From the IMG/VR virus record IMGVR_UViG_3300048837_001683, positions 1 to 40,903 of that record: a stretch of 40,903 nt of DNA, one strand, 5' to 3'. Made by a program: the position numbers and the translations under genes. The stretch is from a virus. Shown piece by piece: positions 1,131 to 40,793 of the stretch; position 1 is the stretch's first letter, and each line of letters starts with the position of its first letter. The notes beneath the pieces were generated by a model. It did not search any database. It was not told the origin of the DNA and saw nothing but the letters and a program-made list of their open reading frames with translations.

Positions 1131-1495
1131 GCGGCCCGTCCCTTCTGCAGCTCGCCGGCGAGCTCGAGCGCGGAATCGATGAGCTCGGAGGGCACGCCCG
1201 CGTCGCCGAGGAGCTCCTCGTCGTCGCGCTGCTCGACCGAGCTGTCGACGGCGTGCCCGAGGTAGAGGGCGACGAGGGCTGCGAGCGTTGGGCGCTCCAC
1301 GCTCGCGTCGACGTTCTGGCAGACGAGTCGGAACACGTCGCGCACGGAGCCGTCGGCGAGGCCTTCGACGAGCACGATCGCGGTGGCTTCCGCTTCGGGC
1401 CCGGAGAGCATCGGCACTAGCGCGCGCGCGAGCTCGTTGCGCAGCTTCGCGGTGCGCGTTCGAGAGAGAGGTTTCCAGATCGGTCGTTCGGGCAT
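1127..1495 (-). CDS. Hypothetical protein of the leftward operon (122 aa)
   Basis: The ATG at 1495 is preceded on the minus strand by AGCAGGAGACCC, a good Shine-Dalgarno sequence. This is one of few genes in the operon with its own ribosome site, because a 130-base gap with a long hairpin precedes it. The protein starts MPERPIWKPLSRTRTAKLRN and is otherwise helical and acidic. No family is recognised. The independent ribosome site suggests that translation restarts here after the hairpin at 1534-1622. Confidence 0.65.
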   Translation of the reverse strand: MPERPIWKPLSRTRTAKLRNELARALVPMLSGPEAEATAIVLVEGLADGSVRDVFRLVCQNVDASVERPTLAALVALYLGHAVDSSVEQRDDEELLGDAGVPSELIDSALELAGELQKGRAA

Positions 1496-1533
1496 GGGTC
1501 TCCTGCTGGGTGGCGAGGCGTGTAAGGGGAGCG

Positions 1534-1622
1534 CTCGAAGCGACGACGCGCGGGGAGGGGAGGTGTTGTCCCGCGCGCACAGAGGGGGGGCGGCACGCGT
1601 GGGTGCGCGTCGCCGCTTCGAG
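1534..1622 (-). ncRNA. Long hairpin in the leftward transcript, possible RNase III site or structured leader
   Basis: The bases at 1534-1550 and 1606-1622 form a 17-bp inverted repeat with one non-Watson-Crick position and a 55-base loop. In leftward RNA that position is a G-U wobble, so all 17 pairs hold; in rightward RNA it would be a C-A mismatch. This favours a structure that acts in the leftward mRNA. The loop contains C-rich tracts. It fills the only sizeable gap of the operon (1496-1625). No T tract follows, so it is not a classical terminator. Role inferred. Confidence 0.45.
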
Positions 1623-1625
1623 AGC

Positions 1626-1931
1626 TCACTCGCGATCGAGCTCGCGTGCGTCGACGAGCTCGTCGGTCGGTGGTCGCGGCGCATCCGCGGGCCACGACAT
1701 CGTCAGGCGGTAGGGGATGGCGCGGATGTGATCGGCGCCGGCCTGCGTCCACGCTTCGGTCAGCTCGACTGCGGCCGCGGTCGCGAATCGCGCGTCGTCG
1801 TTCTCGTAGGCGTAGACGAGGTGGACCTCGTCGCCGGTCAGGTCGACGCCGGCGAGGTCCGGGCTCGCGACGAGCGTGCGAGCACCGGACTCGTCACGCT
1901 CGATGCGACCGAAGACGAGCCGGAACGTCAC
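1626..1931 (-). CDS. Small hypothetical protein of the leftward operon (101 aa)
   Basis: The GTG start at 1931 overlaps the preceding stop (GTGA). The protein begins VTFRLVFGRIERDESGART and alternates beta-like and helical segments, with two LV(Y/F)-type hydrophobic stretches. No known family, signal peptide or membrane span is visible. The gene ends just before the hairpin region 1534-1622, so it is the last gene of the first translationally coupled block from the leftward promoter. Confidence 0.6.
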   Translation of the reverse strand: MTFRLVFGRIERDESGARTLVASPDLAGVDLTGDEVHLVYAYENDDARFATAAAVELTEAWTQAGADHIRAIPYRLTMSWPADAPRPPTDELVDARELDRE

Positions 1932-2344
1932 GCCGCGACGTCTCCTCGCGCCGCGCGCCGCTCGAGCTCGAGTGCGCGGAGGACGTCCTCGGGGATGCCC
2001 ACGACCTGCGTGAGCACGGACCACCGGTGGAGCTGCGACGGCCACGCGGGGCAGACCGCGTCGACGTAGTCCACGGCGACCTCGGCCGCGGCGAGCGCGT
2101 GCTGGCGCGGATCGGTGGACGAGAGCACGCGCGCCCGGGTCGGGCTGCGGAGCACGTCGAGCACGAGCTGGTAGACCTTCGCGCACTCGCCGTCGACGAG
2201 GGGCTGGACGACGTTGCGCGCGGCCTCCTCGAGGCCTGCGAAGAGCATCACACGCGCGAGCGCGTGCGAGACGAGCTTGATGAAGCGCGGGTGCTCCGCG
2301 CGTTGGAGGGGGCGGAACGTGCTGGGGGCGGTGGTGGCGGTCAC
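1928..2344 (-). CDS. Hypothetical helical protein of the leftward operon (138 aa)
   Basis: GTG at 2344, overlapping the stop of the first operon gene (GTGA). The sequence is mostly helical (HPRFIKLVSHALARVMLFAGLEEAARNVVQ would be one region) with a conserved-looking segment WPSQLHRWSVLTQVVGIPED near the C-terminus. It has two cysteines and no obvious metal-binding motif. It is not recognised as a member of any family. Position two genes from the leftward promoter implies early expression. Confidence 0.6.
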   Translation of the reverse strand: MTATTAPSTFRPLQRAEHPRFIKLVSHALARVMLFAGLEEAARNVVQPLVDGECAKVYQLVLDVLRSPTRARVLSSTDPRQHALAAAEVAVDYVDAVCPAWPSQLHRWSVLTQVVGIPEDVLRALELERRAARGDVAA

Positions 2345-2628
2345 GAGTCGGTCTCCTCGCCGCGCACCGGCGCGGCCGTGGTTGCAAGGGCGCGGGCTTC
2401 CGCGGGGACTCCGGGGGCGCGGGGGACGCGCGCGTCGTGCTCGTCGACGCGCTCGATGAGGCGGCGGAGCGCGGTGAGCAGGTGCAGGCCGCCCGCGTAC
2501 TCGACGAGGCGTCCGTCCCGCATCGCGATCACCACCCAACCGTTCGGCTCGCAGCGCGACTCGACGGCGACGTCGCGCGACCGGAGCTCGGCGCGGGCCT
2601 GTCGTTCGGTGAGCTCGTTGAGCACCAT
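2341..2628 (-). CDS. First gene of the leftward operon, hypothetical (95 aa)
   Basis: The ATG at 2628 lies six bases downstream of a -10-like hexamer, so the mRNA probably starts at or next to the start codon; no Shine-Dalgarno sequence is present. Residues 3-60 have the look of a small beta/alpha domain (TERQARAELRSRD, WVVIAMRDGRLVEYAGG). The C-terminal third is a basic and Ala/Pro-rich tail. In lambda the comparable position holds N, but this protein does not have the short Arg-rich form of N. Function unknown. Confidence 0.65.
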   Translation of the reverse strand: MVLNELTERQARAELRSRDVAVESRCEPNGWVVIAMRDGRLVEYAGGLHLLTALRRLIERVDEHDARVPRAPGVPAEARALATTAAPVRGEETDS

Positions 2629-2634
2629 GTCCGA

Positions 2635-2663
2635 GGTGTATCGGCTAGGCGATATCGCGTCAA
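2635..2663 (-). promoter_or_regulatory. Leftward early promoter with repressor operator in the spacer (PL-like)
   Basis: On the minus strand there is TTGACG (2663-2658), a 17-base spacer (2657-2641) and TACACC (2640-2635), then six bases and the ATG at 2628. TATCGGCTAGGCGATATCG at 2639-2657 is an exact 19-bp copy of the sequence in the rightward promoter at 5021-5039, so one repressor probably covers both. Predicted transcription starts at the A of the ATG. Promoter strength and protein binding are inferred from sequence. Confidence 0.7.
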
Positions 2664-2728
2664 CGATACGGAGGGCGTTTTGTCGGAGAGCGTCCTACCT
2701 TTCGAGTAGCGCCTACCCCGTCCAGGGG

Positions 2729-2757
2729 ATGACGCCCGCGCGCCAACGGGCGAGGAT
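2729..2757 (+). promoter_or_regulatory. Possible promoter of the lipoprotein gene, with a dyad in the spacer
   Basis: ATGACG at 2729-2734, a 17-base spacer and GAGGAT at 2752-2757 precede the ATG at 2764 with the same six-base gap seen at the repressor-region promoters. The spacer holds an inverted repeat, CGCCCG at 2733-2738 and CGGGCG at 2747-2752. The -10 match is weak, and GAGG at 2753-2756 could instead be a Shine-Dalgarno sequence. Confidence 0.3.
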
Positions 2758-2763
2758 TCCCCG

Positions 2764-3264
2764 ATGCGGTGGCTCCTCGCGTTGGTCTTCGTGGCGTCGT
2801 GTGGCGACGCGTCGGGCGTGATCGGAGATGCGATGGTCGCGATCGGCGACGCGATCTCGGACTCGGGGCGCGCCGAGGCGCAGACGATGCTGCTCTGCGA
2901 CTCGGAGGCGACCTACCGTGTCGAGAACGAGGAGACGGGGCTTCTGAGCGAGCAGACGCTCTGGTTCGCGCGCATGGATCTCGAGGACGCCGCCTCGGTT
3001 CGAGGCGTCGACGTGGTGCTCTGCGGCCGCACCGTCTTCGGCGAGGACGTCGTCACGCCTCCATGCCCTCCCGGCGCGACGTGCAGCGGCGTCCTGCCGA
3101 CCTCGCTGGTTCGAGCCGACTGCACCACCGGTGGCGCGACGTTTCAGGAGGGCGAGCTCTTCGTGGCGTGCGGGAGCCGCAACGTCTCGCGCTCGTCGTC
3201 GTCCTCGCTCACGACGACCTCGGGCGAGCGGCGCGCATACGCGCACGTGACCATCCGCCGGTGA
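2764..3264 (+). CDS. Putative secreted lipoprotein, likely lysogenic-conversion cargo (166 aa)
   Basis: A short Arg-started hydrophobic signal (MRWLLALVFVASC) ends in a lipobox-like VAS-C with the modified cysteine at residue 13. The mature part contains six further cysteines (including the close pair in PPCPPGATC), suggesting a disulphide-bonded domain, and a Ser-rich stretch near the end. It has no recognised family. It lies outside the coupled early operons, between the leftward promoter and the immunity genes, the typical place for genes expressed from a prophage. A role at the host surface, for example superinfection exclusion, is inference. Confidence 0.6.
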   Translation: MRWLLALVFVASCGDASGVIGDAMVAIGDAISDSGRAEAQTMLLCDSEATYRVENEETGLLSEQTLWFARMDLEDAASVRGVDVVLCGRTVFGEDVVTPPCPPGATCSGVLPTSLVRADCTTGGATFQEGELFVACGSRNVSRSSSSSLTTTSGERRAYAHVTIRR

Positions 3265-3458
3265 GCAACCGCGCGGCAGCCGCGACCGATGCGCGCGCCA
3301 TGCTCACCCGTTCGCTCTCCGCGCGCCCCGACGTCCCCGTGATCCTTCACGACGCCGGTCGGTGGCGCCTCGTGTACTTCCGCGAGCTCGGCGACGCTTG
3401 GTGGTGCGTGCCGGGAAGTCGGCGCCTTGGCTGTCGCGCGCCCGTCGGGCGGGCGTAG
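3261..3458 (+). CDS. Small hypothetical protein coupled to the lipoprotein gene (65 aa)
   Basis: The GTG at 3261 overlaps the lipoprotein stop by four bases (GTGA). The peptide has a central tract LVYFRELGDAWWCVPG rich in aromatic residues and Arg-rich ends. No signal peptide or family is recognised. Coupling to the lipoprotein gene is the main reason for accepting it. Confidence 0.45.
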   Translation: MSNRAAAATDARAMLTRSLSARPDVPVILHDAGRWRLVYFRELGDAWWCVPGSRRLGCRAPVGRA

Positions 3459-3476
3459 CTCTCACCCGTTTGGGGG

Positions 3477-3944
3477 ATGACGCACGTTCAGGATTGCATG
3501 CGATCTGGATGCAAAGGCCAGATCGTTGAAATGTCGGACATACCGCTCTTTGCCCGCGCGACAGCAAAGCATCTTCTGCTGAAGCTCCATGACGACACGT
3601 TCGCGAAGAACAAGCATCGCGGCGCTGTGATGATCGACCTCCTGGAGGAGCTTCACGAGCTCATCAAGTCGTTTCCGCCCGATCGCTGGCACTCGAGCTG
3701 GGAGCGCGCGCGCGGTGTTCTCGAGGTCTCGCCTGTCGGCGCGACACGCGGAAACATCAAGCTGACGGCGCTCCTGAACGGCGTTCGTCTCGAGCGCGGA
3801 TCTCGCGTTGAGGTGGTCGTCTTGCACGCCGACTTTGCGAACGGACGAGCGATTCACGAGGAGTGGGTCGGCTTCTCGCCGAAGGTCTACACCGACGGCA
3901 TCCAGAAGGTCGTCGAGGCGATCGTCGCCTTCAAGCCGTTCTGA
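3477..3944 (+). CDS. Hypothetical protein with atypical base composition (155 aa)
   Basis: The ATG at 3477 is used here; an in-frame ATG at 3531 is an alternative start and would remove the Cys-containing leader (CMRSGCKG). The protein has a helical stretch with several His and Lys (AKHLLLKLHDDTFAKNKHRG) and an apparent alpha/beta domain ending in IVAFKPF. Third positions use A and T much more often than the neighbours, suggesting more recent acquisition. No family is recognised. It sits in the plus-strand accessory block that ends with the ImmA-like protease, so it could be cargo or immunity-related. Confidence 0.6.
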   Translation: MTHVQDCMRSGCKGQIVEMSDIPLFARATAKHLLLKLHDDTFAKNKHRGAVMIDLLEELHELIKSFPPDRWHSSWERARGVLEVSPVGATRGNIKLTALLNGVRLERGSRVEVVVLHADFANGRAIHEEWVGFSPKVYTDGIQKVVEAIVAFKPF

Positions 3945-3999
3945 TCGTCACACCCGCGTGGATCTGATCGCCACCTTCCCGTGGGCGCGCGGAGGGGAT

Positions 4000-4587
4000 G
4001 TGGTCGGCTGGCAGGAGTACGAGGGGATCGCGAGGCAGGCGCTCGAGCGCGCCTCGCAGGACGACGTCGTCGACCTTCGAGAGGTCGCGCGCGCGCACGA
4101 CGTGCAGATCGTCGAGACGCACGGACCTCCGGGGGCCACCCTCTCGCTCGTGTTCGTGCGCCACGGCGAGGAGCCGCGACGGAGGAAGTGGACGCTCGCC
4201 CACGAGCTCGGCCACATCCTTGCGCGACGGGCGGGGCTCGACGGCGCGTGCGAGCGCACGGCGAACGGGATCGCGAACTGCCTCGTGATCCCAGACCGCG
4301 CCGCGAAGCGCGACCTCGCGCGGTTCGGCTGGCGTGTGGCCCCGATCCGCGAGCGTCACGAGCTGTCGTGGGAGGTGACGATCCGTCGCCTCGTGACCGT
4401 GCAGAGCGCCGTGGGCGCGCTCTGGCGCGGCCGTCGCGTCTGGGCTGGTCGTTCGCCGTGGCTTCGAGGGCGCCTCGACCTCGAGGTCGTCGAGCTGCTG
4501 CCGCGGGAGGACGCCGGAGAGGTCGAGCTCGTGCTCGTGACCCCCGAGGTCGCCGAAGAGGTCGCGGCGGCGTCAGTGGCGGGTTGA
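4000..4587 (+). CDS. ImmA/IrrE-family metallopeptidase, likely anti-repressor
   Basis: Residues 66-77 hold the zinc-protease motif HELGH (His68, Glu69, His72), followed by Glu85 in the context ERTANGIANCLVIP, the arrangement of the ImmA/IrrE (peptidase M78) family. In ICEBs1 and many phages ImmA cleaves the partner repressor to trigger induction. The adjacent repressor at 4573-4971 has no self-cleaving domain, which fits. The genes converge and overlap by 15 bases. The GTG at 4000 is chosen for its GGAGG sequence at 3991-3995; GTG 3958 is an in-frame alternative. The C-terminal 100 residues contain a repeated RG(R/W) pattern and probably bind the substrate. Confidence 0.8.
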   Translation: MVGWQEYEGIARQALERASQDDVVDLREVARAHDVQIVETHGPPGATLSLVFVRHGEEPRRRKWTLAHELGHILARRAGLDGACERTANGIANCLVIPDRAAKRDLARFGWRVAPIRERHELSWEVTIRRLVTVQSAVGALWRGRRVWAGRSPWLRGRLDLEVVELLPREDAGEVELVLVTPEVAEEVAAASVAG

Positions 4588-4971
4588 GTCCTTCGCCTCG
4601 GCGATCTCCTTCGCGCGGCGCAGCCAGCCCTGCACATCCTTCGGCTTCGCCCCGTCGAGGCCGGCCCACGCGAGCAGCTCGTCGACCACAACCTGTGGGT
4701 AATGGACGAGCTCGAGCGCGGCGGCGAGGTCGGGGTAGCGACGGCGCGGGTCGTCGTCGTTCTCGTAGCGAGCCTCGCCGGCCAAGAGCCAGTCCACCGT
4801 CACCTTCAGCTCGCGCGCGACAGTGTGCAGCATCGCTGCGTCGGGTGAAGCGACGCGCCCGGTCTCCCAGTCGGAGATCGTCTGCTTTCGGATGCCCGTG
4901 CGAGTGCCGAGCTGCTCCTGAGTGAGCTTCGCCGCCTTGCGCGCCTGCTGCAGTCGCTGCCCGAGAGTCAT
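4573..4971 (-). CDS. Phage repressor, XRE-type helix-turn-helix (132 aa)
   Basis: Residues 4-64 form a typical XRE/Cro-C1 domain, with the helix-turn-helix TQEQLGTRTGIRKQTISDW and the following WLLAGEA. The C-terminal 65 residues are helical and lack the Ser-Lys peptidase of LexA/CI, so the protein should not self-cleave. Size and organisation resemble ImmR of ICEBs1, which is cut by ImmA. It is divergent from the Cro-like gene at 5047, and the 75-base gap holds both promoters and the 22-bp palindrome it most likely binds. The ATG at 4971 has no Shine-Dalgarno sequence, in agreement with a leaderless mRNA. Confidence 0.85.
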   Translation of the reverse strand: MTLGQRLQQARKAAKLTQEQLGTRTGIRKQTISDWETGRVASPDAAMLHTVARELKVTVDWLLAGEARYENDDDPRRRYPDLAAALELVHYPQVVVDELLAWAGLDGAKPKDVQGWLRRAKEIAEAKDSTRH

Positions 4972-4977
4972 GTCCGC

Positions 4978-5006
4978 AGCTAACGGGTAGCCGCTACATG
5001 TCGCAA
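4978..5006 (-). promoter_or_regulatory. Predicted repressor promoter (PRM-like) with small dyad in the spacer
   Basis: On the minus strand, TTGCGA (5006-5001), 17 bases and TTAGCT (4983-4978) precede the ATG at 4971 by six bases. The spacer contains GTAGC-G-GCTAC (an imperfectly related dyad), which may serve autoregulation. The hexamers are only moderate matches, and the call rests on the geometry shared with the promoters at 2635-2663 and 5012-5040. Confidence 0.5.
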
Positions 5007-5011
5007 TCTGC

Positions 5012-5040
5012 TTGAAGCGATATCGGCTAGGCGATATCGT
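5012..5040 (+). promoter_or_regulatory. Rightward early promoter and main operator (PR/OR-like)
   Basis: TTGAAG (5012-5017), a 17-base spacer and TATCGT (5035-5040) are followed by six bases and the GTG at 5047. A 22-bp near-palindrome at 5018-5039, two CGATATCG half-sites around GCTAGG, fills the spacer and enters the -10. Only one symmetric pair in it is mismatched. Nineteen bases are repeated exactly at the leftward promoter. Repressor binding here would block early transcription in both directions. Confidence 0.75.
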
Positions 5041-5046
5041 TGCGGC

Positions 5047-5319
5047 GTGCGTGCGATTTCCCCCGAGTTCAAATCGGTCGTGAGCGGCCAGATCCGGCTC
5101 GCCCGAAAGCGGTGTGGGCTCACGCAGCGCGCCGTGGCCGTCGCGCTCGACGTGGACACCATGCGTGTCAGCGACTGGGAGCGAGGAGCGTCGGTCCCGA
5201 ACACCGAGCAGGTGGCCCAGCTCGCCGAGCTGTTCGGAGTCTCGCTCGACTGGCTGCTGCGCGGCGACGGTCATGAGACCAGCGTCGATCCGGCCTCGAC
5301 CCCTGACGAGGCGGCATGA
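5047..5319 (+). CDS. Cro-like XRE-family regulator (90 aa)
   Basis: Residues 12-72 are an XRE helix-turn-helix domain (TQRAVAVALDVDTMRVSDWE, then SLDWLLRGDG). It is divergent from the repressor and first in the rightward early operon, the position of cro. The GTG at 5047 lies at the predicted transcription start, with no ribosome site. It overlaps the next gene by four bases (ATGA). It probably binds the same palindrome as the repressor and shuts down repressor synthesis, by analogy with lambda and 434. Confidence 0.8.
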   Translation: MRAISPEFKSVVSGQIRLARKRCGLTQRAVAVALDVDTMRVSDWERGASVPNTEQVAQLAELFGVSLDWLLRGDGHETSVDPASTPDEAA

Positions 5320-8653: not shown

Positions 8654-9699
8654 CCTGGGCGAAGATCGACGACCGGGCGCCGCAGCACCCGAAGCTGCTG
8701 CAGGCTGGACCCGAGGCGTGCTGGATGTGGGTCGCTGGGCTCTGCTACGCGAACGCCCACACCACCGACGGCCTCGTGCCGAGCTACGCGCTGCTCGCTC
8801 TCTCGCCCGGATCGTGGCCGGAGAAGCGCGCGCGAGCTCTCGCCGACCGCCTCGTGGAAGTCGGACTCTGGCACCGCGAAGGCGACGCGGGCTGGCGAAT
8901 CCACGACTACGAGGACCACCAAGAGCCCGCGATGAAGAGCGAAGTGGAGCGCCGTAAGGCGCTCACTCGCGAACGGAAGCGACGCCAGCGACGTCGAGAA
9001 CGCGGGGAACCGGAGGATGGTCACGCACCCGTCACGCGTGACAGTCACGCACCCGTCACGCGTGACAACGAGCGTGACGGGCCGCGTGACACCCAGCGTG
9101 ACGTGCCACGTGACGCAGCGGGTGACGTGCGCGGTGACGCGTCCGTCGATGTCACGCCCCCCCGGCCCGTCCCGACCCGGCCCGTCCCGATCTCTCCTTC
9201 GGAGAGTGATCGCGCACCCGCGCAAGACCCCGAGGAGATGAACCCGGCCCGTGTGTGGCGCGCCCTCGACGAGGCCTGGTTCGAGGCCTTCGCCGAGCGC
9301 CTGCCGGGCTGCTGGAGCCCGCTCTTCCGAGCCGACGCCGAGGCTGTGCTCGAGCGCTGCGGAGGGACCGCCGCGGGCGTGCAGGCCGAGGTGCAGGGCT
9401 ACGTGCGTTGGGCTCGCACGCGCGACGTCCGGCCGGCGGAGCCCTGGCGGAAGTTCTTCGGATCGATCGGGAGCTGGGCGTCTCGCCTCGAGGGCGACAA
9501 GGCACGCGCGAAGGCGGGCGCGCGGCAACGCGAGCGCATCGCCGCCGAGCGCCACTTGAAGCCCGCGAGCAACGGCACACCGGACGCGGCGGAGACCGAT
9601 CGGAAGCTCGCGAAGGTAGCGCCTCCGGCCTCCGAGATCGTGCCCCTCGGCGAAGCCGCTGCGGGCGTCCTCGCGACCCTTCGTGGAGGTGGTGCGTGA
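8650..9699 (+). CDS. Phage replication initiator, lambda O-like organisation (349 aa)
   Basis: The N-terminal domain (TWAKIDDRAPQHPKLLQAG...WMWVAGLCYAN...TDGLVP) is the winged-helix type found in phage replication proteins. Residues 123-163 are a low-complexity linker of 4-residue units (RD/GD-x-x) encoded by the iteron array. The C-terminal domain from residue 197 (MNPARVWRALDEAWFEAF) is helical and may contact host helicase or loader. No helicase or primase gene is visible, so host enzymes are probably recruited. GTG start at 8650 in a GTGA overlap. Confidence 0.7.
   Translation: MTWAKIDDRAPQHPKLLQAGPEACWMWVAGLCYANAHTTDGLVPSYALLALSPGSWPEKRARALADRLVEVGLWHREGDAGWRIHDYEDHQEPAMKSEVERRKALTRERKRRQRRRERGEPEDGHAPVTRDSHAPVTRDNERDGPRDTQRDVPRDAAGDVRGDASVDVTPPRPVPTRPVPISPSESDRAPAQDPEEMNPARVWRALDEAWFEAFAERLPGCWSPLFRADAEAVLERCGGTAAGVQAEVQGYVRWARTRDVRPAEPWRKFFGSIGSWASRLEGDKARAKAGARQRERIAAERHLKPASNGTPDAAETDRKLAKVAPPASEIVPLGEAAAGVLATLRGGGA
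9020..9138 (+). repeat. 12-bp iteron array, candidate replication origin inside the initiator gene
   Basis: GTGAC occurs at 9038, 9062, 9074, 9086, 9098, 9110, 9122 and 9134: an exact 12-base phase with one missing position at 9050. The left part is two tandem 24-base units (9020-9043, 9044-9067), which also carry the inverted motif GTCAC. The array lies in the middle of the initiator gene, as the lambda origin lies in O. A second tandem, CCCGGCCCGTCCCGA twice at 9161-9190, follows. No clear AT-rich unwinding region is seen. Confidence 0.65.
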
Positions 9700-10310: not shown

Positions 10311-10984
10311 AGCGCCCTCGGCTCCCCGCGACCTCGAGGCCGTGGCCGGTGGTAATCCTTGCGATCGACCCGGGCGCGACCTCGGGCTGGTGCGTGCTGG
10401 TGCCGGAGGCGCAGCACCGCGCGCTCCGCGTCGAAGCTGGCGTCGCGAAGACCACGCCGCAACGCGAGGCGTGCGTGCAGCTTGCGGTGACGACCGCGGC
10501 CGAGCGTGAGCGCGTCCTCGTCGTCGTTGCGGAGACCTGGCGTGTGCCCGCGCCCAAGCCGGGCGAGGCGCGGCCGGGGGAGAAGCGTCGCCCCTTCGGT
10601 GCGCAGACCGCGGCGGGGCTCGGTGCGAACTGGGGGCGCTGGCTCGCGGAGCTCGAGCGCGCAGCCATCCGCGCGAGCTCGGTCATTCGAGTCGACACCG
10701 GCACGTGGCGCGCGCGGGTCCTCGGCTACCCGAAGCGACGCCCCACGGAGGCGTGGAAGCGGGCTGCGCTGGCGCGCGCGGCGACCGTGACGAGCGCCGA
10801 GCTCGCGCACGATGCGGCCGAGGCCGTGTGCATCGCGCTCTGGGCACAGATCGCAGGCGAGGTCGGCCTCGCGCTGCCGGCGGCGACCCTCCGCGCGGCG
10901 CTCGCGCGCCCCGAGGACGCGGACCTCCTCGCCGAGCTCGAGCGCCGTCGAGGCCTCGCACCCACGACCACGCGGCCGCGCTGA
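10307..10984 (+). CDS. RuvC-like Holliday-junction resolvase (225 aa)
   Basis: The RNase H-fold motifs are in order: AIDPGATSGWCV (Asp21), VVVAETWRV (Glu76) and HDAAEAVCIALWA (Asp169, Glu172), matching the acidic active site of RuvC. Phage enzymes of this type resolve branched DNA in replication, recombination or before packaging. The protein is longer than RuvC (about 170 residues), with an extra basic segment after Glu76 (KPGEARPGEKRRP). The ATG at 10307 overlaps the previous stop (ATGA); in-frame GTG 10295 is less likely. Confidence 0.7.
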   Translation: MKRPRLPATSRPWPVVILAIDPGATSGWCVLVPEAQHRALRVEAGVAKTTPQREACVQLAVTTAAERERVLVVVAETWRVPAPKPGEARPGEKRRPFGAQTAAGLGANWGRWLAELERAAIRASSVIRVDTGTWRARVLGYPKRRPTEAWKRAALARAATVTSAELAHDAAEAVCIALWAQIAGEVGLALPAATLRAALARPEDADLLAELERRRGLAPTTTRPR

Positions 10985-11012
10985 GGACGCACGGCCGCAG
11001 GAGGAGCCACCG

Positions 11013-12893
11013 ATGGAGACCACGACCGAACCCAAGAAGCCGAAGAAGCCACGCAAGAGCGCGGCCGAGGTAGCCGCCGAAACGGGGACCCTGAGACCCG
11101 ACCTCCCCGCGAAGGGCGCCCCGAAAGCGGCGAACGGCTTCAAGGCGAAGCCGAAGACCGAGACGCTCGAGGACGAGCTCGCCGACATGGCCCGCGAGCT
11201 CGGCAACCCACCGCCTCGGCCGAAGGGGCGGTCCGAGGTCATCCGGCTCGACGCACTCGACGTCTACCCGCGCAACCCTCGCGGACCGATCCGCGAAGAG
11301 GACGTGGTCGAGCTCATGAGCGACATCGGGACGCACGGGCAGCTCCACGAGCTCACCGTGCGGCCCAAGCGGGGCGAGCGAGGTGAGGAGCGCTGGGAGG
11401 TGCTCGCCGGAGCCCGCCGGCGCCTCGCGATGATCTTGGGCGGGCACACCACGGCGCGCTGCTGGGTGCTCGACGGCTGCGACGACGACACGGCCCGCGA
11501 GATCGTGCTCACCGAGAACGCGCAGCGCGAAGACATCCACCCGCTCGACGAGGCGGACTCGATCCGCGAGCTCATGGAGCTGAAGGGGAGCGCGGAGGCC
11601 GTCGCAGCCCGGCTCGGCAAGACGGTCGCCCACGTCCACGGGCGGCTGCGGCTGGCGGGCCTCGGAGCCGAGGGCCGCGAGGCCTTCCGCGCGGGCGAGC
11701 TCACCTTCGGTGTCGCGGCCGCGCTCGCGCGCTTCGACGAGCCCACGCAAGCGAGGGCGCTCCGGGAAGGGCGCGCGGCGTGGCCTCCGAGGCCTCCTGG
11801 AGAGCCGATCCCGTCGGCGAGCATCACGAGCGCGCTCGTGCGCGCCGCGCTGCTGCTGAGCGGCGCGAAGTTCCCGCTCGACGTCGTGCCGGACGCGAAG
11901 GGGACGCGCGGAGCCTGCACGACGTGCATGCACCGGACGGGCGCTCAAACCGAGCTCTTCGCCGACGCCCTCGCCGCCACCAAAGACGACCGATGCGTCG
12001 ACCACGCGTGCTGGGACGCGAAGAACGCGTGGTGGTTCGCGGAGCTCGCGGCGAAGGCGAAGGAGCAGGGCGCCACGGTCAAGAAGAAGCTCGACGCGAA
12101 GGCCTACGCGGGCACGCCGCTCTGGAACGGCTCCGACCTCCGCACCGCGGACTACGTCCCCGCCGACGCGCCCGCGAACCACGGGCACACCTGGGATCGC
12201 ATCAAGAGCGGCAACCGCGAGCTGACGTGGTCGCAGGCGCACAAGAAGGCGTTCGGCGAGCCGATCCCGGCGACCGAGATCACGGTGACGCTGGACGGCA
12301 CGGGCGCGCCTCGTGAAGTCATCAAGGAGAGCCTCGCGAAGCGCATCCGATCCGCGTTCAAGAAGGGGGAGACCGGCGGCGACACGCAGCCCGACTCGTA
12401 CGCTCAGCAGGAGAAGAAGCGTCGCGAGAAGGAGAAGATCCAGCGCGCGGTGCTTCGGGCTGTACAGGATGCGGCGATCCAGAAGGCGCGCAGCGTCGAT
12501 CTGACCGAGGCGGAGGTGTTCGGCCCCGGCGGACTGCTGCGACCGCTCGCGCTGCTCGCCCTCGACCGCTTGGACAGCCCGACACTCGTGGACCTCGGGA
12601 TCCGCGAGTGCCAGAGCTACCTGGAGAGGCACAAGGCGCTCGTCGAGCACGTCGCATCCGTGAAGAGCGACGAAGAGCTCGTGCGACTGCTGCTCGTCGG
12701 GCTTCTCGTCCGAACGTTCAGCCGCGACCGCACCGAGGAGGGCGAATCGGCGCGTGCGGCCGCGCTCGAGCTGCTTGGGGTTGACGCTGACGCGATCAAG
12801 CGCGACGTCGAGGCCGCGGCGAAGAAGCCGAAGAAGGCCTCGTCGAAGACCATCGCAGCGACCACCGCGAAGCGAGGCAAGCGCAAGGCATGA
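11013..12893 (+). CDS. ParB/Spo0J-like nuclease-domain protein (626 aa)
   Basis: After a basic disordered N-terminus (KKPKKPRK), residues from about 75 form a ParB N-terminal domain: SEVIRLDALDVYPRNPRG, ELMSDIGTHGQLHELTV, then GARRRLAMIL and the diagnostic TENAQREDIHPLDEA. A helix-turn-helix region (AVAARLGKTVAHVHGRL) follows. A Cys-rich segment (ACTTCMHRTG ... DRCVDHACW) is likely to bind zinc. The end is Lys/Ala-rich. No ParA partner is present, so plasmid-style partition is unlikely; CTP-dependent DNA clamping, replication control or transcription regulation are options. The ATG at 11013 has a strong GCAGGAGGAGCC ribosome site. Confidence 0.75.
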   Translation: METTTEPKKPKKPRKSAAEVAAETGTLRPDLPAKGAPKAANGFKAKPKTETLEDELADMARELGNPPPRPKGRSEVIRLDALDVYPRNPRGPIREEDVVELMSDIGTHGQLHELTVRPKRGERGEERWEVLAGARRRLAMILGGHTTARCWVLDGCDDDTAREIVLTENAQREDIHPLDEADSIRELMELKGSAEAVAARLGKTVAHVHGRLRLAGLGAEGREAFRAGELTFGVAAALARFDEPTQARALREGRAAWPPRPPGEPIPSASITSALVRAALLLSGAKFPLDVVPDAKGTRGACTTCMHRTGAQTELFADALAATKDDRCVDHACWDAKNAWWFAELAAKAKEQGATVKKKLDAKAYAGTPLWNGSDLRTADYVPADAPANHGHTWDRIKSGNRELTWSQAHKKAFGEPIPATEITVTLDGTGAPREVIKESLAKRIRSAFKKGETGGDTQPDSYAQQEKKRREKEKIQRAVLRAVQDAAIQKARSVDLTEAEVFGPGGLLRPLALLALDRLDSPTLVDLGIRECQSYLERHKALVEHVASVKSDEELVRLLLVGLLVRTFSRDRTEEGESARAAALELLGVDADAIKRDVEAAAKKPKKASSKTIAATTAKRGKRKA

Positions 12894-36156: not shown

Positions 36157-36587
36157 GCGGGGCGCAGCGCCGCGAGGGCGCGTTCGCACTCGATGAGGTG
36201 ACCCACCGCGTCATCAACGGCGTCCTCCGCCGCGAGCATCCGCTCAGCGGCGGCTTTCCACCCACCTACCGCTACCCACTCCTCGGATGCGGCGTGCTGT
36301 GCTCTTGCGGCGGCGATAACAGCCTCTTTCGCCTCTGCGACCCGAGCTTCGGCGTCTCGGATCTGCGTGCAGGGCGTGACGACCTCGACCGCGAACACGT
36401 ACACGAGCCCTCCGCCTGGTGCGCCCGGCTCCAGCGCCACTCGGTGCGGTCGCGGCACACCGGGTCGGTCGTCGTAGCGTTCGTACTCGCCGCAGCGCCC
36501 CGAGAGGTCGCGAAACGGTTCCTCGGGCTTCTCGGGATCGTCGTCGTGAACGATCCGAACCCAGTCGCCCCAACCAGGGTTGCTCAC
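36123..36587 (-). CDS. Hypothetical protein downstream of integrase (154 aa)
   Basis: GTG at 36587 overlaps the integrase stop (GTGA); ATG at 36596 with GGAGGGAGG before it is an alternative. The first half has charged and aromatic residues (SNPGWGDWVRIVHDDD) and a two-Cys pattern; the second half is a long helical segment (ARVAEAKEAVIAAARAQ, MLAAEDAVDDAVGHL). It lies between attP and the lysis genes, so in a lysogen it would be at the opposite prophage end from int. No family. Confidence 0.55.
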   Translation of the reverse strand: MSNPGWGDWVRIVHDDDPEKPEEPFRDLSGRCGEYERYDDRPGVPRPHRVALEPGAPGGGLVYVFAVEVVTPCTQIRDAEARVAEAKEAVIAAARAQHAASEEWVAVGGWKAAAERMLAAEDAVDDAVGHLIECERALAALRPAQAAAAVARAT

Positions 36588-38170
36588 TTGGCCCATCCTC
36601 CCTCCAGCTTCCTCGCCAGCTCCTCGCTGCTGATCCCGAGCCTCCGGGCGACGCCACGGAGCACACGTAGAGCCACCACCTCGTCACCTCCGCCGGCGAG
36701 CTCACGGGCGAGCGCCACGAGGGGCGAACGGTCAACATCCGCACTACGTCCGCGAATCGGTCGTGAATCGCGGGAGTCACCCGTGGGGGGGCGTGGGCCC
36801 GTAAGTGCCCGGGACGGCTCGGAAGTGCCGACGACCGTAAGGGTTCGAGTCCCGTCCGCTCCGCCGAAACCCCCGTCACCGACGGGGGTTTTTGCGTTGG
36901 GCCCTTCCAGGTCAACGATCGGGTCAAGATCCGACGGACCTGCGACGACGGCGGCACGAGGCAGCGCGACGACCTTCGCGTGCCGCTCAAGGCGCACGTC
37001 GAGGCGCAGGACCGCCTCGCACTGAGCGAGCCAGCGGCTCCCGCGGTAGGTGTTGAACGCGCCGGCGACGGGCTTCACCGAGTGCGTGATCGTCGCGACG
37101 ATCTGCTCGAGCTCGGGGGCGTCCGTGCTCGCGAGCGTCGCGAACGTGTTGCGGAGCTCGTGGGTCATCCGAGCCGGGATGCGGAGCTCGCGGCAGTCGC
37201 GCTCGAGCTGCTTCAGCGTCGAGCGCACCGGCCGGAACCGGCGGACGTCGAGCGTGGACGGCACGACGTAGTCGTCCGGGCGCGGGTGCCTTCCGTGCAG
37301 CGCGGCGAAGCCGCCCGTGCGCCACGCCTCGAGGATGGTCGCGAGGGTGCGGTGGACCGGGATCTCGCGCCGCTTGCCGTGGCCGCGTCGGTCTTCCTTC
37401 AGCGGGCGCCCGCCGGCCTGCTCGACGAGGGTGATGCGCGCGAGGGGCTCCGCGCGGAAGTCGATGTCACGCCACCGAAGGCCCGCCGCCTCGTCGTGGC
37501 GCATGCCGGTGAGGCCGAGCAGCGCCCAGAAGGTTCGGTGGTCGACCTGCAGGCGAGGGTCCGAGATCAGCAGCTCGAGCTCGGCGCGTTGGAACGAACC
37601 GCGCGGCCGCGAGACGCGCTCAGGCGCCTCGCCGTCGTCGAGGAGGTCGACGGGCGGCACCCACGCAACCCCCCGACGTCCGATCTCCTTCGCTGCGTCC
37701 CGGAGGCACTTCGCGAACGTCCCCCACACGTTGTGGATCGTGTTCGGCGAGAGCGGCTTCCCCGTCGTCGAGGAGCTCTTCGACCGGAGCTTCGAGAGCA
37801 GCTCGCGCACGTGGTCGACCGAGATCTCGACGAGCGGGAGACGACCGAGCAACGGGCGCACGTGCTCACGCAGGCGCGCCTCGTCGTCGTCGATAGTGCG
37901 CGGTGGGTTCGGCCGGTCGCGCCGCTTCTGGATCCACGTGTCGGCCCACGCGTCGAACCGAAGCCGATCGGTGCGGCGGTGGACGGTCGGCGTCCACGTC
38001 CCGGCCTTCACCGCGGCGATGCGCCCCTCGCGGTAGCGAACGGCCGCCCGCAGGTCGTCGCCGGCGATCTCCTGCACGCGCGTCCCGAGCGGGCCGACGT
38101 AGTGGATCTCGTACTGTCGGCCCGCGCGTCGGCGGATGCCGGGCGGCAGCTTCGCGGGTCTACGCGGCAT
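36584..38170 (-). CDS. int: Tyrosine recombinase integrase containing attP in its coding sequence (528 aa)
   Basis: The catalytic residues are in order: TGMRHDEAAGLRW (Arg224), KRREIPVHR (Lys267 region), MTHELRNTF (His337, Arg340), ITHSV (His363) and FNTY (Tyr375). Residues 70-170 form the core-binding SAM-like domain. The sequence continues 150 residues past the nucleophile, and residues 436-444 (GGADGTRTL) are the antisense translation of a tRNA 3' end. Integration at that site would exchange the last 84 codons. Phage Mx8 of Myxococcus has the same layout. ATG at 38170 lies inside the end of the excisionase-like gene. Confidence 0.9.
   Translation of the reverse strand: MPRRPAKLPPGIRRRAGRQYEIHYVGPLGTRVQEIAGDDLRAAVRYREGRIAAVKAGTWTPTVHRRTDRLRFDAWADTWIQKRRDRPNPPRTIDDDEARLREHVRPLLGRLPLVEISVDHVRELLSKLRSKSSSTTGKPLSPNTIHNVWGTFAKCLRDAAKEIGRRGVAWVPPVDLLDDGEAPERVSRPRGSFQRAELELLISDPRLQVDHRTFWALLGLTGMRHDEAAGLRWRDIDFRAEPLARITLVEQAGGRPLKEDRRGHGKRREIPVHRTLATILEAWRTGGFAALHGRHPRPDDYVVPSTLDVRRFRPVRSTLKQLERDCRELRIPARMTHELRNTFATLASTDAPELEQIVATITHSVKPVAGAFNTYRGSRWLAQCEAVLRLDVRLERHAKVVALPRAAVVAGPSDLDPIVDLEGPNAKTPVGDGGFGGADGTRTLTVVGTSEPSRALTGPRPPTGDSRDSRPIRGRSADVDRSPLVALARELAGGGDEVVALRVLRGVARRLGISSEELARKLEGGWAK
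36841..36865 (+). other. attP: attP core: 3' end of a tRNA-Asp gene
   Basis: The 25 bases start GGGTTCGAGTCCCGTCC and correspond to tRNA positions 51-75, with the T loop TTCGAGT, acceptor strand and discriminator G. They differ from the E. coli tRNA-Asp 3' end at one position as I recall it. The 5' half of a tRNA is absent. Integration would rebuild the host tRNA-Asp. The exact core limits and the host site cannot be seen here. Confidence 0.7.
36867..36893 (+). terminator. Rho-independent terminator behind the tRNA fragment
   Basis: ACCCCCGTC (36869-36877), loop ACC and GACGGGGGT (36881-36889) form a 9-bp stem, continued by TTTTT to 36893. It is directly downstream of the tRNA fragment in the same direction, so it would terminate the rebuilt tRNA in a lysogen. 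On the opposite strand it is read through as part of the integrase gene. Confidence 0.8.
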
Positions 38171-38438
38171 GGTTCGTCGTCCCGCCCGCCAGGAAGGCCT
38201 CGAGGTCATCGCGTCGCACGCGCCACGCGCGCCCAATCTGCGACGCACGCAGCGACCCGCGTTCGACGTGCTTGCGGATCGTCCTCGGGTGCAGCTTCGC
38301 GAGCGCGGCCGCCTCGGCGATCGAGAGCATCGCGGCCGGCTCTGCATCGCGCGTGTTCTCCAGCTCGGTGCGCACGGCCTCGCGGACGAGCTCGCGGAGC
38401 TCCTCGGCGGTGAGGGTGACCAGAAGCCTCTCAGACAT
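38160..38438 (-). CDS. Excisionase-like helix-turn-helix protein (92 aa)
   Basis: Residues 38-85 are a MerR/Xis-type domain: MLSIAEAAALAKLHPRTIRKHVERGSLRASQIGRAWRVRRDDLEAFLAGG. Small proteins with this domain next to int act as excisionases/recombination directionality factors. An acidic helix (TAEELRELVREAVRTELEN) precedes it. It overlaps int by 11 bases, so both are made together, as xis-int of lambda. Confidence 0.7.
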   Translation of the reverse strand: MSERLLVTLTAEELRELVREAVRTELENTRDAEPAAMLSIAEAAALAKLHPRTIRKHVERGSLRASQIGRAWRVRRDDLEAFLAGGTTNHAA

Positions 38439-39006
38439 GGCCGACGCAGTCTCCGCAGAGCCAGCGACCGCCCACCTCGACAAGCTCGACGAGCGCGCCG
38501 TCCGTGCCGCACTCGTCGCATGGGCCGTCCTCGTCGCCGGGGTCGAACCCTTCGAGCATCCGCCCCTCGGTCCATCCTGCCGCGCGCGCTTCGTCCGCGC
38601 ATCGGCCACCGATGTACGTGATGGTGCCGTGGTGGAGCGTGACCTCGAGCGCGAACCGTCCGAGCGTCTCGTGCCAAGGTCCGCAGACTCGCTCGATATC
38701 AGCGGCGAACGCCCGCGCGAGCGCCTCGGTTCTCTCTTTGAGAGTCTTGAGATCGTCGATGTAGGCCGTTTCAAGGTCGCCACCGGCCATCCGACTGATG
38801 GCATCTTCGGCGAGGTCGGGAGCGATCGATGCGAGGTCGACGCGATACGCGGCGTGCACCTCGAACGTCCCGGTCCCGCCCCACTCGTCGACGGCCTCGG
38901 TGATCGCTGCACGCATCGCGGCGTCCAGCGTCGGAGCATGGACGTAGTTCTCTTCGTCGCTCGTCCAGAGCCAACCGTCTTGCTTCGGCTTCATCATGTT
39001 CTCCAT
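38431..39006 (-). CDS. Hypothetical protein with C-terminal zinc-finger-like motif (191 aa)
   Basis: ATG at 39006 overlaps the previous stop by one base (TGATG). The C-terminal part has CDECGTDGALVELVEVGGRWLCGDC, a CxxC...CxxC zinc ribbon. The N-terminal 130 residues are acidic and helical (DAAMRAAITEAVDEWGG) and contain a calcium-free mixed domain with GTITYIGG. No family assigned. Member of the leftward operon that ends with int. Confidence 0.6.
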   Translation of the reverse strand: MENMMKPKQDGWLWTSDEENYVHAPTLDAAMRAAITEAVDEWGGTGTFEVHAAYRVDLASIAPDLAEDAISRMAGGDLETAYIDDLKTLKERTEALARAFAADIERVCGPWHETLGRFALEVTLHHGTITYIGGRCADEARAAGWTEGRMLEGFDPGDEDGPCDECGTDGALVELVEVGGRWLCGDCVGHV

Positions 39007-39323
39007 CAGAGCGCCCCCTTCCGTCGTCGCGAGACGCCGCGGTCGATCTCGACGCGGCCGTCCGGCCGTCGGTACGCGGCCGCCTTCGGGCACGTGGCGA
39101 AGTGGCTCGTCCAGAGCCGCTCGGAACGGAGCGCGGTCGGAACGATCTCCGCCTCGACCTGCGAAGCGTCGTCCTGCCGGCGGCGAAGGCGCACGTTCCC
39201 GTCCTGTCGTCCCGCGCGCACGACGTCGATCGGGTTCGCCTTCCCGGAGGGCATGCGCGCCCAGTAGATCCGAGCTCCGCACGACTTGCAGACGTGCGTG
39301 AGCAGCTTCGGGAGGTCACCCAC
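39006..39323 (-). CDS. Small zinc-ribbon protein (105 aa)
   Basis: N-terminal CKSCGARIYWARMPSGKANPIDV is a common motif of small phage zinc-ribbon proteins (C-x2-C followed by a G-K-x-x-P-I-D segment), with a later CPKA and His that may complete the site. Function unknown. Its ATG at 39323 overlaps the preceding stop. Confidence 0.6.
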   Translation of the reverse strand: MGDLPKLLTHVCKSCGARIYWARMPSGKANPIDVVRAGRQDGNVRLRRRQDDASQVEAEIVPTALRSERLWTSHFATCPKAAAYRRPDGRVEIDRGVSRRRKGAL

Positions 39324-40584
39324 GGGAGGCGCCCTCGACGACGATCACCGGGCCGCGCGGCGAGTCGACCGTGACCACCTGGTAGCCCACCGCGCGCAGC
39401 ACCGCGGCCGCGCCGACGCCGGGCGGAGGGGTGAACGCTTCGGCGAAAGCCTCGACGAGGGTGGGCTTCGCTTCGCTGGATCCCGACTCCCGCTCCGCGA
39501 TCTCGCGCTGCAGGACCTTGATGCGCTCTCCACGCTCGGCGAGCGACGTGCGCAGGTCGTCGCGCTCGCGCTTGAGCTCGCGCAGTTCGCGCATCGCCTC
39601 GCTCGCACGGAAGGCCTTGTGCCCCGCTTGGTCCGTGATGTCGCGGCACTTCATTTCGACGGCCTGATCGAGCGGCCGGTCCTTCGTCCACGCGTCGCCG
39701 ACGACGCGCTTCGTCCGCTCGATCACATCGCGAAGGCGCGAGAGCTGGCGGGAACGGTGGCCGAGGAGCCAACGGGTGCTCACCCAGCCGCACCCCTTCT
39801 CGTCGACGACGAGCTCGTCGTTCGCCTCCGCGGCCGCGCGCTCGTGCTCGTCGAGCTCGTCTCTCGATGCCCACCGATCCGCGTCTACCATGGCGGTGGC
39901 TCCGACGTAGATCGCGGGTGTGGGGCTCGGGGTCGGCTCGGGGCTCGGCTCCTCGCGCTCAGTCGTCGCGGCCTCGACAGCCCGATCGAGCGCGGTCGAA
40001 ACGTCCTCGAGCGCCTTCCTCCGCTCGCGCATCGCCCGCATCCGTTCCTTCGCCGCTTGGTTCTGCGCGGGCGACGTGCGGTGCTCCTCGCAGTAGAGGC
40101 CGCGCGGGCCCGTGGGGGTGAACCACGCGTCGCAGCCGGCGCGTGCACACTTCTTCGCTGCGCGCTTCGGCGCGGGGGTCTCGGTCGCGGGCATCGGGTC
40201 CTCCGTCGTAGTTGGGTGCTCGTCTCTCCGAGCCGTCACGCCGTCGTCAGATCCGGCGTTCGATCCCAGCGCATTGCCCGTTTGCGGGGTCGGCATTCCG
40301 CTGGCCATGTCACTCCCCCGCGAGCTCGCGACGGGCCTCGTCACGGGCTCGCGGGGAGGTGCGAGCGCGCCGACCTCGACGAGCGAGTACTCGACGCCGG
40401 GCGCGTCCTCGCCGCGCGCGTGAGCAGCGCCGACGGGGCACTCGTGGCAGTGGACGCGATCGACGCGCGCGCCCGAGCCGACGCTGCGTCGGCTGGCGAC
40501 GGGTCGTGGGTAGCGCTGCGCGCACGCCGAGGGCGTGATGCGCGCGCCGTAGGGCTGGCAGACGAAGAGTCGGAGCGACGTCAT
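39316..40584 (-). CDS. Two-zinc-motif coiled-coil protein with possible internal start (422 aa)
   Basis: The N-terminal 60 residues have LFVCQPYGARITPSACAQRY and CHECPVGAAHARGE, a Cys-rich unit typical of small phage proteins. After a Pro/Thr linker, a second unit (CARAGCDAWFTPTGPRGLYCEEH) begins with MPATETP at 40194, preceded by GGAGG six bases upstream. The remainder is a coiled coil (ELRELKRERDDLRTSLAER). So the gene may produce the full fusion and a 292-residue shorter form, or two genes may have fused. Function unknown. ATG at 40584 in an ATGA overlap. Confidence 0.6.
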   Translation of the reverse strand: MTSLRLFVCQPYGARITPSACAQRYPRPVASRRSVGSGARVDRVHCHECPVGAAHARGEDAPGVEYSLVEVGALAPPREPVTRPVASSRGSDMASGMPTPQTGNALGSNAGSDDGVTARRDEHPTTTEDPMPATETPAPKRAAKKCARAGCDAWFTPTGPRGLYCEEHRTSPAQNQAAKERMRAMRERRKALEDVSTALDRAVEAATTEREEPSPEPTPSPTPAIYVGATAMVDADRWASRDELDEHERAAAEANDELVVDEKGCGWVSTRWLLGHRSRQLSRLRDVIERTKRVVGDAWTKDRPLDQAVEMKCRDITDQAGHKAFRASEAMRELRELKRERDDLRTSLAERGERIKVLQREIAERESGSSEAKPTLVEAFAEAFTPPPGVGAAAVLRAVGYQVVTVDSPRGPVIVVEGASRG

Positions 40585-40793
40585 CTCGAGGCCTCGTGGT
40601 CGGCCTGCACGCGGAGCGCGCTGGCGCAGTCCTCGAGCAGGACCGCGACTCGGTGCATCGCGGCGGGCGTCTCCGCGACTGGGTTGCCGAAGACATCGCG
40701 AGCTCGGAACGTGACGCGCGCGTCTCCGGTGCGGTCGCGATGGAAGAAGAGCACGACCTCGAGGCCGAGGTCCTCGCGCGGCTCGCGCATCAT
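40581..40793 (-). CDS. Small hypothetical protein (70 aa)
   Basis: Starts MMREPREDLGLEVVLFFHRD at 40793 (or the adjacent ATG at 40790) and overlaps the stop of the partial gene before it. Beta-like first half and a helix at the end (HRVAVLLEDCASALRVQ). No family recognised. Confidence 0.5.
   Translation of the reverse strand: MMREPREDLGLEVVLFFHRDRTGDARVTFRARDVFGNPVAETPAAMHRVAVLLEDCASALRVQADHEASR

Follow-up and report, generated by a model that had tools for sequence, protein, structure and literature searches.

Predicted leaderless lytic messages in the lambda-like immunity region of a phage with a probable Myxococcota host

Results

Promoters and start codons of the immunity region

Here, we examined the immunity region of a virus sequence (IMG/VR record IMGVR_UViG_3300048837_001683; 40,903 bases, 71% GC, analyzed at full length and called the window below). 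In this lambda-like region both lytic-direction promoters are probably fused to start codons, PL to that of the first gene of the leftward operon (left1) and PR to that of a Cro-like gene (cro), so that the PL and PR messages would be leaderless. This reading was derived from the spacing of promoters, operators and start codons, the operators shared by PL and PR, the lack of good Shine-Dalgarno sites and the conservation of the arrangement in relatives. Candidate promoters were scored by their matches, out of 12, to TTGACA/TATAAT, and N17+N6 denotes the fixed spacer plus the gap to the start codon. The features concerned are as follows (HTH, helix-turn-helix).

2341..2628, minus strand: left1, 95 amino acids, without a Pfam match; ATG at 2628 predicted to be leaderless
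2629..2663, minus strand: PL, -35 TTGACG (2658-2663), N17, -10 TACACC (2635-2640), N6, ATG; 8/12
5012..5046, plus strand: PR, -35 TTGAAG (5012-5017), N17, -10 TATCGT (5035-5040), N6, GTG 5047; 8/12
5047..5319, plus strand: Cro-like HTH_3 protein (PF01381, E=3.2e-14), predicted leaderless GTG, in-frame alternative GTG at 5080
4573..4971, minus strand: repressor, 132 amino acids, XRE/HTH_3 (PF01381, E=1.3e-14)
4972..5006, minus strand: weak PRM candidate, -35 TTGCGA (5001-5006), N17, -10 TTAGCT (4978-4983), N6, ATG 4971; 6/12

A preliminary description of this DNA had reported three such strings, before the starts at 2628 (minus), 4971 (minus) and 5047 (plus), and all of them were found in place. 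The geometry they were said to share is strong at PL and PR and weak at the repressor. Of the 2,308 start codons on the two strands of the window, only those of left1 and cro scored at least 8/12 at exact N17+N6; counted over all 81,686 positions, about 4 did so (fraction 4.9e-5). With spacers of 16-18 and gaps of 5-7 allowed, about 4 of the 2,308 start codons reached 8/12 (fraction 0.0017). Gap 6 was the sole best register for both PL and PR. The repressor site scored as high as about 0.9% of start codons do at the fixed geometry; its -10 has no A at position 2, and there was a four-way tie between registers with gaps of 5-7.

Neither left1 nor the repressor gene has a Shine-Dalgarno match of at least 3 bases before its start, and the only match at cro is an AGG lying 15 bases off, while 17 of 21 other window starts (listed by hand) have a match of at least 4 bases. 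By sequence, all three genes thus appear to lack a functional Shine-Dalgarno site. The fourth, weaker leaderless case that had been proposed, a small lipoprotein-like gene (2764..3264, plus strand; 34% identical to the syntenic gene of the G184 prophage), did not hold. Its upstream string ATGACG-N17-GAGGAT scores 7/12, but the supposed -10 is a Shine-Dalgarno-like site whose AGGA ends 7 bases 5' of the ATG, and the promoter was rejected. Elsewhere in the window, GTGACA/CGTGAC repeats with 24-base spacing (9050-9130) give false promoter matches.

The in-frame GTG at 5080 would give cro a 33-base leader, which speaks against a leaderless cro. With that start the GLTQ helix would be preceded by 12 residues, as is common in XRE proteins. 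However, no Shine-Dalgarno match was seen by eye before 5080, the Cro-like proteins of two relatives (L382 and G184) start 17 residues before the GLTQ motif, and the promoter score peaks at 5047, so this internal start is quite unlikely.

Conservation in related phages

The geometry was compared with that in two IMG/VR contigs, L382 (obtained by a peptidase-alignment search of viral contigs) and L446 (obtained by searches with two flanking genes), and in the G184 prophage, whose gene order is the same as here (cro, repressor, M78 peptidase, lipoprotein, leftward operon); with the present phage, these make four syntenic sequences. The top promoter before each start was taken from a free scan (spacer 16-18, gap 0-35, ties counted).

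PL of L382: TTGACG-N16-TAGTGT, gap 6; 8/12
PL of L446: TTGCGT-N17-CATCAT, gap 6; 7/12, tied with gaps 12 and 14
PL of G184: TTGACG-N17-TGACGT, gap 7; 7/12, tied with gap 12
PR of L446: TTGACC-N17-CATAAG, gap 7; 9/12
PR of G184: TTGACG-N17-TAAGCG, gap 7; 7/12, tied inside the 6-7 window
PR of L382: geometry absent; best 6/12 at gap 12, -10 TATGCT

A gap of 6-7 was kept at PL in all four phages and at PR in three of four, and at the repressor in this phage only, with ties, the geometry being absent before the repressors of L382, L446 and G184 in the free scan. The conserved rule would then be that both lytic operons are leaderless and the repressor does not share the pattern. The strongest evidence comes from left1, whose homologues (45% identity in L382, 43% in L446) are 10-11 residues longer at the N terminus, with the distance from -35 to ATG staying at 34-36 bases. 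Because the N terminus changed length while this distance held, the start codon appears to be tied to the promoter. Hence the earlier proposal of leaderless mRNAs for all key regulators finds support at PL and PR, where seven of eight starts keep the spacing next to unrelated operators, and is not borne out at the repressor (one of four phages, with ties); comparison with relatives, which the preliminary description had named as a check, retained the one part and lost the other.

That PL, PR and PRM are all leaderless, the repressor included, is possible but doubtful. The PRM hexamers are present at N17/N6, no Shine-Dalgarno match precedes the repressor ATG, and leaderless repressors are known: RACE found the cI and cro mRNAs of phage PY54 to be both leaderless (PMC4488713), and PaaR2 of a cryptic prophage is described as leaderless like lambda cI (PMC8630535). 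On the other hand, PRM reaches only 6/12 with tied registers and a poor -10, and the geometry is missing from the three relatives. From -35 to start codon, moreover, the PRM 38-mer agrees with PL at 16/38 and with PR at 12/38 positions, against an average of about 12 among start-codon 38-mers.

In all, the top promoter lay at gap 6-7 for 7 of the 8 PL/PR starts, compared with 41 of 260 coding open reading frame (ORF) starts in the same four sequences. Several points weigh against leaderless PL and PR messages. The binomial probability for that comparison (1.7e-5) ignores the shared descent of the relatives, and its 260-start null still contains the tested starts and many imprecise ones. PL and PR are not independent, because an identical operator lies in both spacers and 27 of 38 positions are shared (the next best of 1,956 ATG/GTG 38-mers shares 22), and on sequence grounds their two geometries amount to roughly a single coincidence. 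The hexamers here and in relatives are far from the E. coli consensus (7-9/12), the sigma preference of the host being inferred from spacing alone. The ties at PL of L446 and at both promoters of G184, and the loss at PR of L382, have been listed above. In three more distant contigs (L383-L385, 40% peptidase identity), no promoter of at least 7/12 was found at gap 6-7 before HTH genes; one 8/12 match (gaps 8-9) precedes a second HTH match within the same ORF. In the G165:C79 remnant, which holds only the repressor and peptidase of the immunity region, the repressor start, read by eye, lacks the leaderless geometry. Neither case entered the eight-start count, L383-L385 since no counterpart of the leftward gene or cro was identified there.

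Messages from other registers, with short leaders (about 3-12 bases) that lack a Shine-Dalgarno site, would be the rule if L382 cro (TATGCT, gap 12) were typical, and the tied gap-12 alternatives at PL of L446 and G184 agree with this. But gap 6 is the sole best register for PL and PR in the window, and TANNNT in the presumed host group peaks at gaps 6-7 (see below); we regard short leaders as unlikely.

In the remnant contig, L362 positions 1436-3627 carry an XRE regulator, an M78 peptidase and, by eye, a RelE-like toxin ORF; its 20 kb stretch has no further match to the window and is possibly a prophage remnant. An HTH profile search of 32 stretches (the window, G184 and the surroundings of related integrases and portals) gave 17 HTH ORFs, with a divergent pair only in the window and G184; among these ORFs, one of G108 had TANNNT at gap 8. 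For phrog_8, matched in 225 of 240 genomes, TANNNT stood at gap 6 before some candidate start in 4 of the best 30 loci of the class (L344, L345, L348 and L352, the last with a doubtful start). Near kin were not found by the repressor alone, the portal alone (two collections) or the integrase (one 26% match).

An element resembling CACCC-loop-GGGG and then GTTCAGG(A/G)TTGC was also observed between PL and the following rightward gene in this phage (3464-3496, partly 2706-2735), L382 (~3275-3312) and L446 (~4365-4400). From its sequence, it looks like the 5' hairpin of a leadered message. The predicted start at 3477 is possibly wrong, because it lies inside this element.

Operators and a proposed switch

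The operators are listed below (no strand assigned).

2639..2654: OL, TATCGGCTAGGCGATA, a 16-bp near-palindrome between the PL -35 and -10, identical to OR
5021..5036: OR, TATCGGCTAGGCGATA, between the PR -35 and -10, identical to OL
2653-2668: second TATCG-N6-CGATA site, overlapping OL, read from the sequence
4981..4996: third, divergent copy over the PRM -10, 2 mismatches to the degenerate consensus

No other site with at most 2 mismatches was found elsewhere in the window, nor was any in 20 simulated windows. OL and OR are 2,382 bp apart, a lambda-like separation (in lambda it is close to this, a few kb) with which looping is conceivable. By coordinates, the operator centre lies 18.5 bases from the start codon at both PL and PR; in G184, with different operators (TTGACGCATGCGTCAA), it lies 28.5 bases from both starts, and L382 has GACGCATACATGCGTC at PL. 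The promoter-to-start spacing might be a by-product of a duplicated operator-promoter-start block, with leader length under no selection, and the operator and 27/38 positions common to PL and PR fit this view. However, the spacing was kept in relatives with unrelated operators, and it stayed constant while the leftward N terminus varied in length, which makes such a by-product very unlikely.

Beside the repressor gene, and convergent with it, lies a peptidase gene that is syntenic in G184.

4000..4587, plus strand: M78 (IrrE/ImmA-type) peptidase with HELGH (PF06114, E=2.8e-11), start picked by eye (GTG after GGAGG); 33% identical to the G184 protein, 67% in L382

Pfam matches of the repressor were limited to the HTH domain, with no cleavage domain matched. 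In the known pairs ImmR/ImmA and IrrE/DdrO, such peptidases inactivate XRE regulators. In a lysogen, repressor bound to OL and OR, inside the promoter spacers, would shut off PL and PR, and through the weaker operator copy that overlaps the PRM -10 it would hold down its own production (autorepression). Induction would probably proceed by inactivation of the repressor through the adjacent peptidase, after which leaderless transcripts of the leftward operon and of cro would be made from PL and PR; these mRNAs are predicted to have their 5' ends on the AUG or GUG, or no more than 1-2 bases from it, and to be translated as leaderless. The place where transcription starts, translation without a leader, binding by the repressor and the role of the peptidase are all inferred. 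The peptidase suggests a simpler induction route than coupling to ribosome state, a proposal of the preliminary description that found no support here.

Phage type and presumed host

The window encodes a Mu-type portal (phrog_113, E=1.6e-103), a head protease and a tail sheath, as well as a tyrosine integrase.

36584..38677, minus strand: ORF with tyrosine integrase (PF00589), 54.5% identical over 455 amino acids to that of the G184 prophage

The G184 prophage has its integrase gene upstream of the immunity region. Minus-strand (leftward) genes occupy both window ends (36584-40793 and 76-2628), which suggests a circular or permuted genome in which the integrase would form the distal part of the PL operon; if so, the integrase ORF may be part of that operon. 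No exact terminal repeat was found in the window. In this integrase-bearing phage, a ParB-like protein (ParB_N and HTH_ParB, 10812-12893) adjoins a DNA methylase-like gene.

A family search with the portal matched 3 of 33 genomes, with identities of 49% (G379) and 46% (G184), and a phylum-level draw matched 28 of 377. The nearest sampled kin of the phage fall in the genome group containing G001, and from them the host is probably a member of the Myxococcota (myxobacterium-like).

To assess leaderless-type starts in this group, TANNNT was counted 6-7 bases before the ATG or GTG of coding ORFs, with the expectation taken from other gaps. Observed against expected numbers were 61 and 15.5 in G184 (700 kb), 11 and 1.8 in G165 (157 kb) and 10 and 2.6 in G174 (200 kb); in the controls, which are prophage neighbourhoods and therefore imperfect, they were 17 and 9.3 (gamma/beta loci) and 8 and 6.1 (alpha loci), and the mild gamma/beta excess counts against the argument. 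The -10 profile peaked at gap 6, and an in-frame-stop filter gave the same peak with smaller numbers. Thus, leaderless-type starts look common in the presumed host group, and because of this a phage with leaderless genes would be no surprise. In a previous survey, leaderless genes were reported in 8 of 33 delta-proteobacterial genomes, with a mean of 15.8% (Zheng et al., 2011; PMC3160421). In the open-access literature, we found no paper on leaderless genes in myxobacteria and, by title, none on such a phage switch.

Comparison with known systems

If correct, these observations describe a conserved and testable design, in which the lytic operons but usually not the repressor are leaderless, for a phage group that has been little studied, and they raise the question of whether leaderless translation has a part in the choice between lysis and lysogeny. 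The finding would be routine if the spacing merely mirrors a habit of the host. A broader proposal, which we consider speculative and improbable, is that a lineage of temperate phages, probably infecting Myxococcota, pins both lytic start codons to +1, leaving operators free to diverge and the repressor usually leadered; lytic entry would use 70S/leaderless initiation and lysogeny the ordinary route, an arrangement opposite to that of lambda, so that ribosome state could bias the decision.

The region resembles that of lambda in its divergent HTH repressor and Cro genes, in shared OL and OR a few kb apart and in the PL/PR/PRM layout. In lambda, the repressor made from PRM is leaderless and the PL and PR messages are leadered, whereas the reverse pattern is conserved here; the present repressor also differs in having no matched cleavage domain and an M78 peptidase next to it. 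In the latter respect it is similar to ImmR/ImmA and DdrO/IrrE, where an XRE regulator likewise adjoins an M78/IrrE-like peptidase gene (PF06114), although regulator and peptidase genes are convergent here and the cleavage is putative.

The immB switch of PY54, an N15-like telomere phage, is similar in that regulator mRNAs start at AUG (PMC4488713). PY54 is a lambda-related Yersinia phage in which repressor and Cro are leaderless, whereas the conserved pair here is PL and PR, not the repressor. The leaderless bacterial genes of Zheng et al. (2011) likewise combine a fixed short distance between promoter and start with the lack of a Shine-Dalgarno site (PMC3160421); they are host genes, and here a phage switch is concerned. 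A switch of this kind had been called unusual, a claim softened by PY54, whose cI and cro are leaderless by RACE (PMC4488713), and by leaderless-type starts being in excess in the presumed host group. Leaderless messages in phage switches are thus already known, and what appears to be new, judged from sequence, is the conserved pairing of PL and PR with the repressor set apart.

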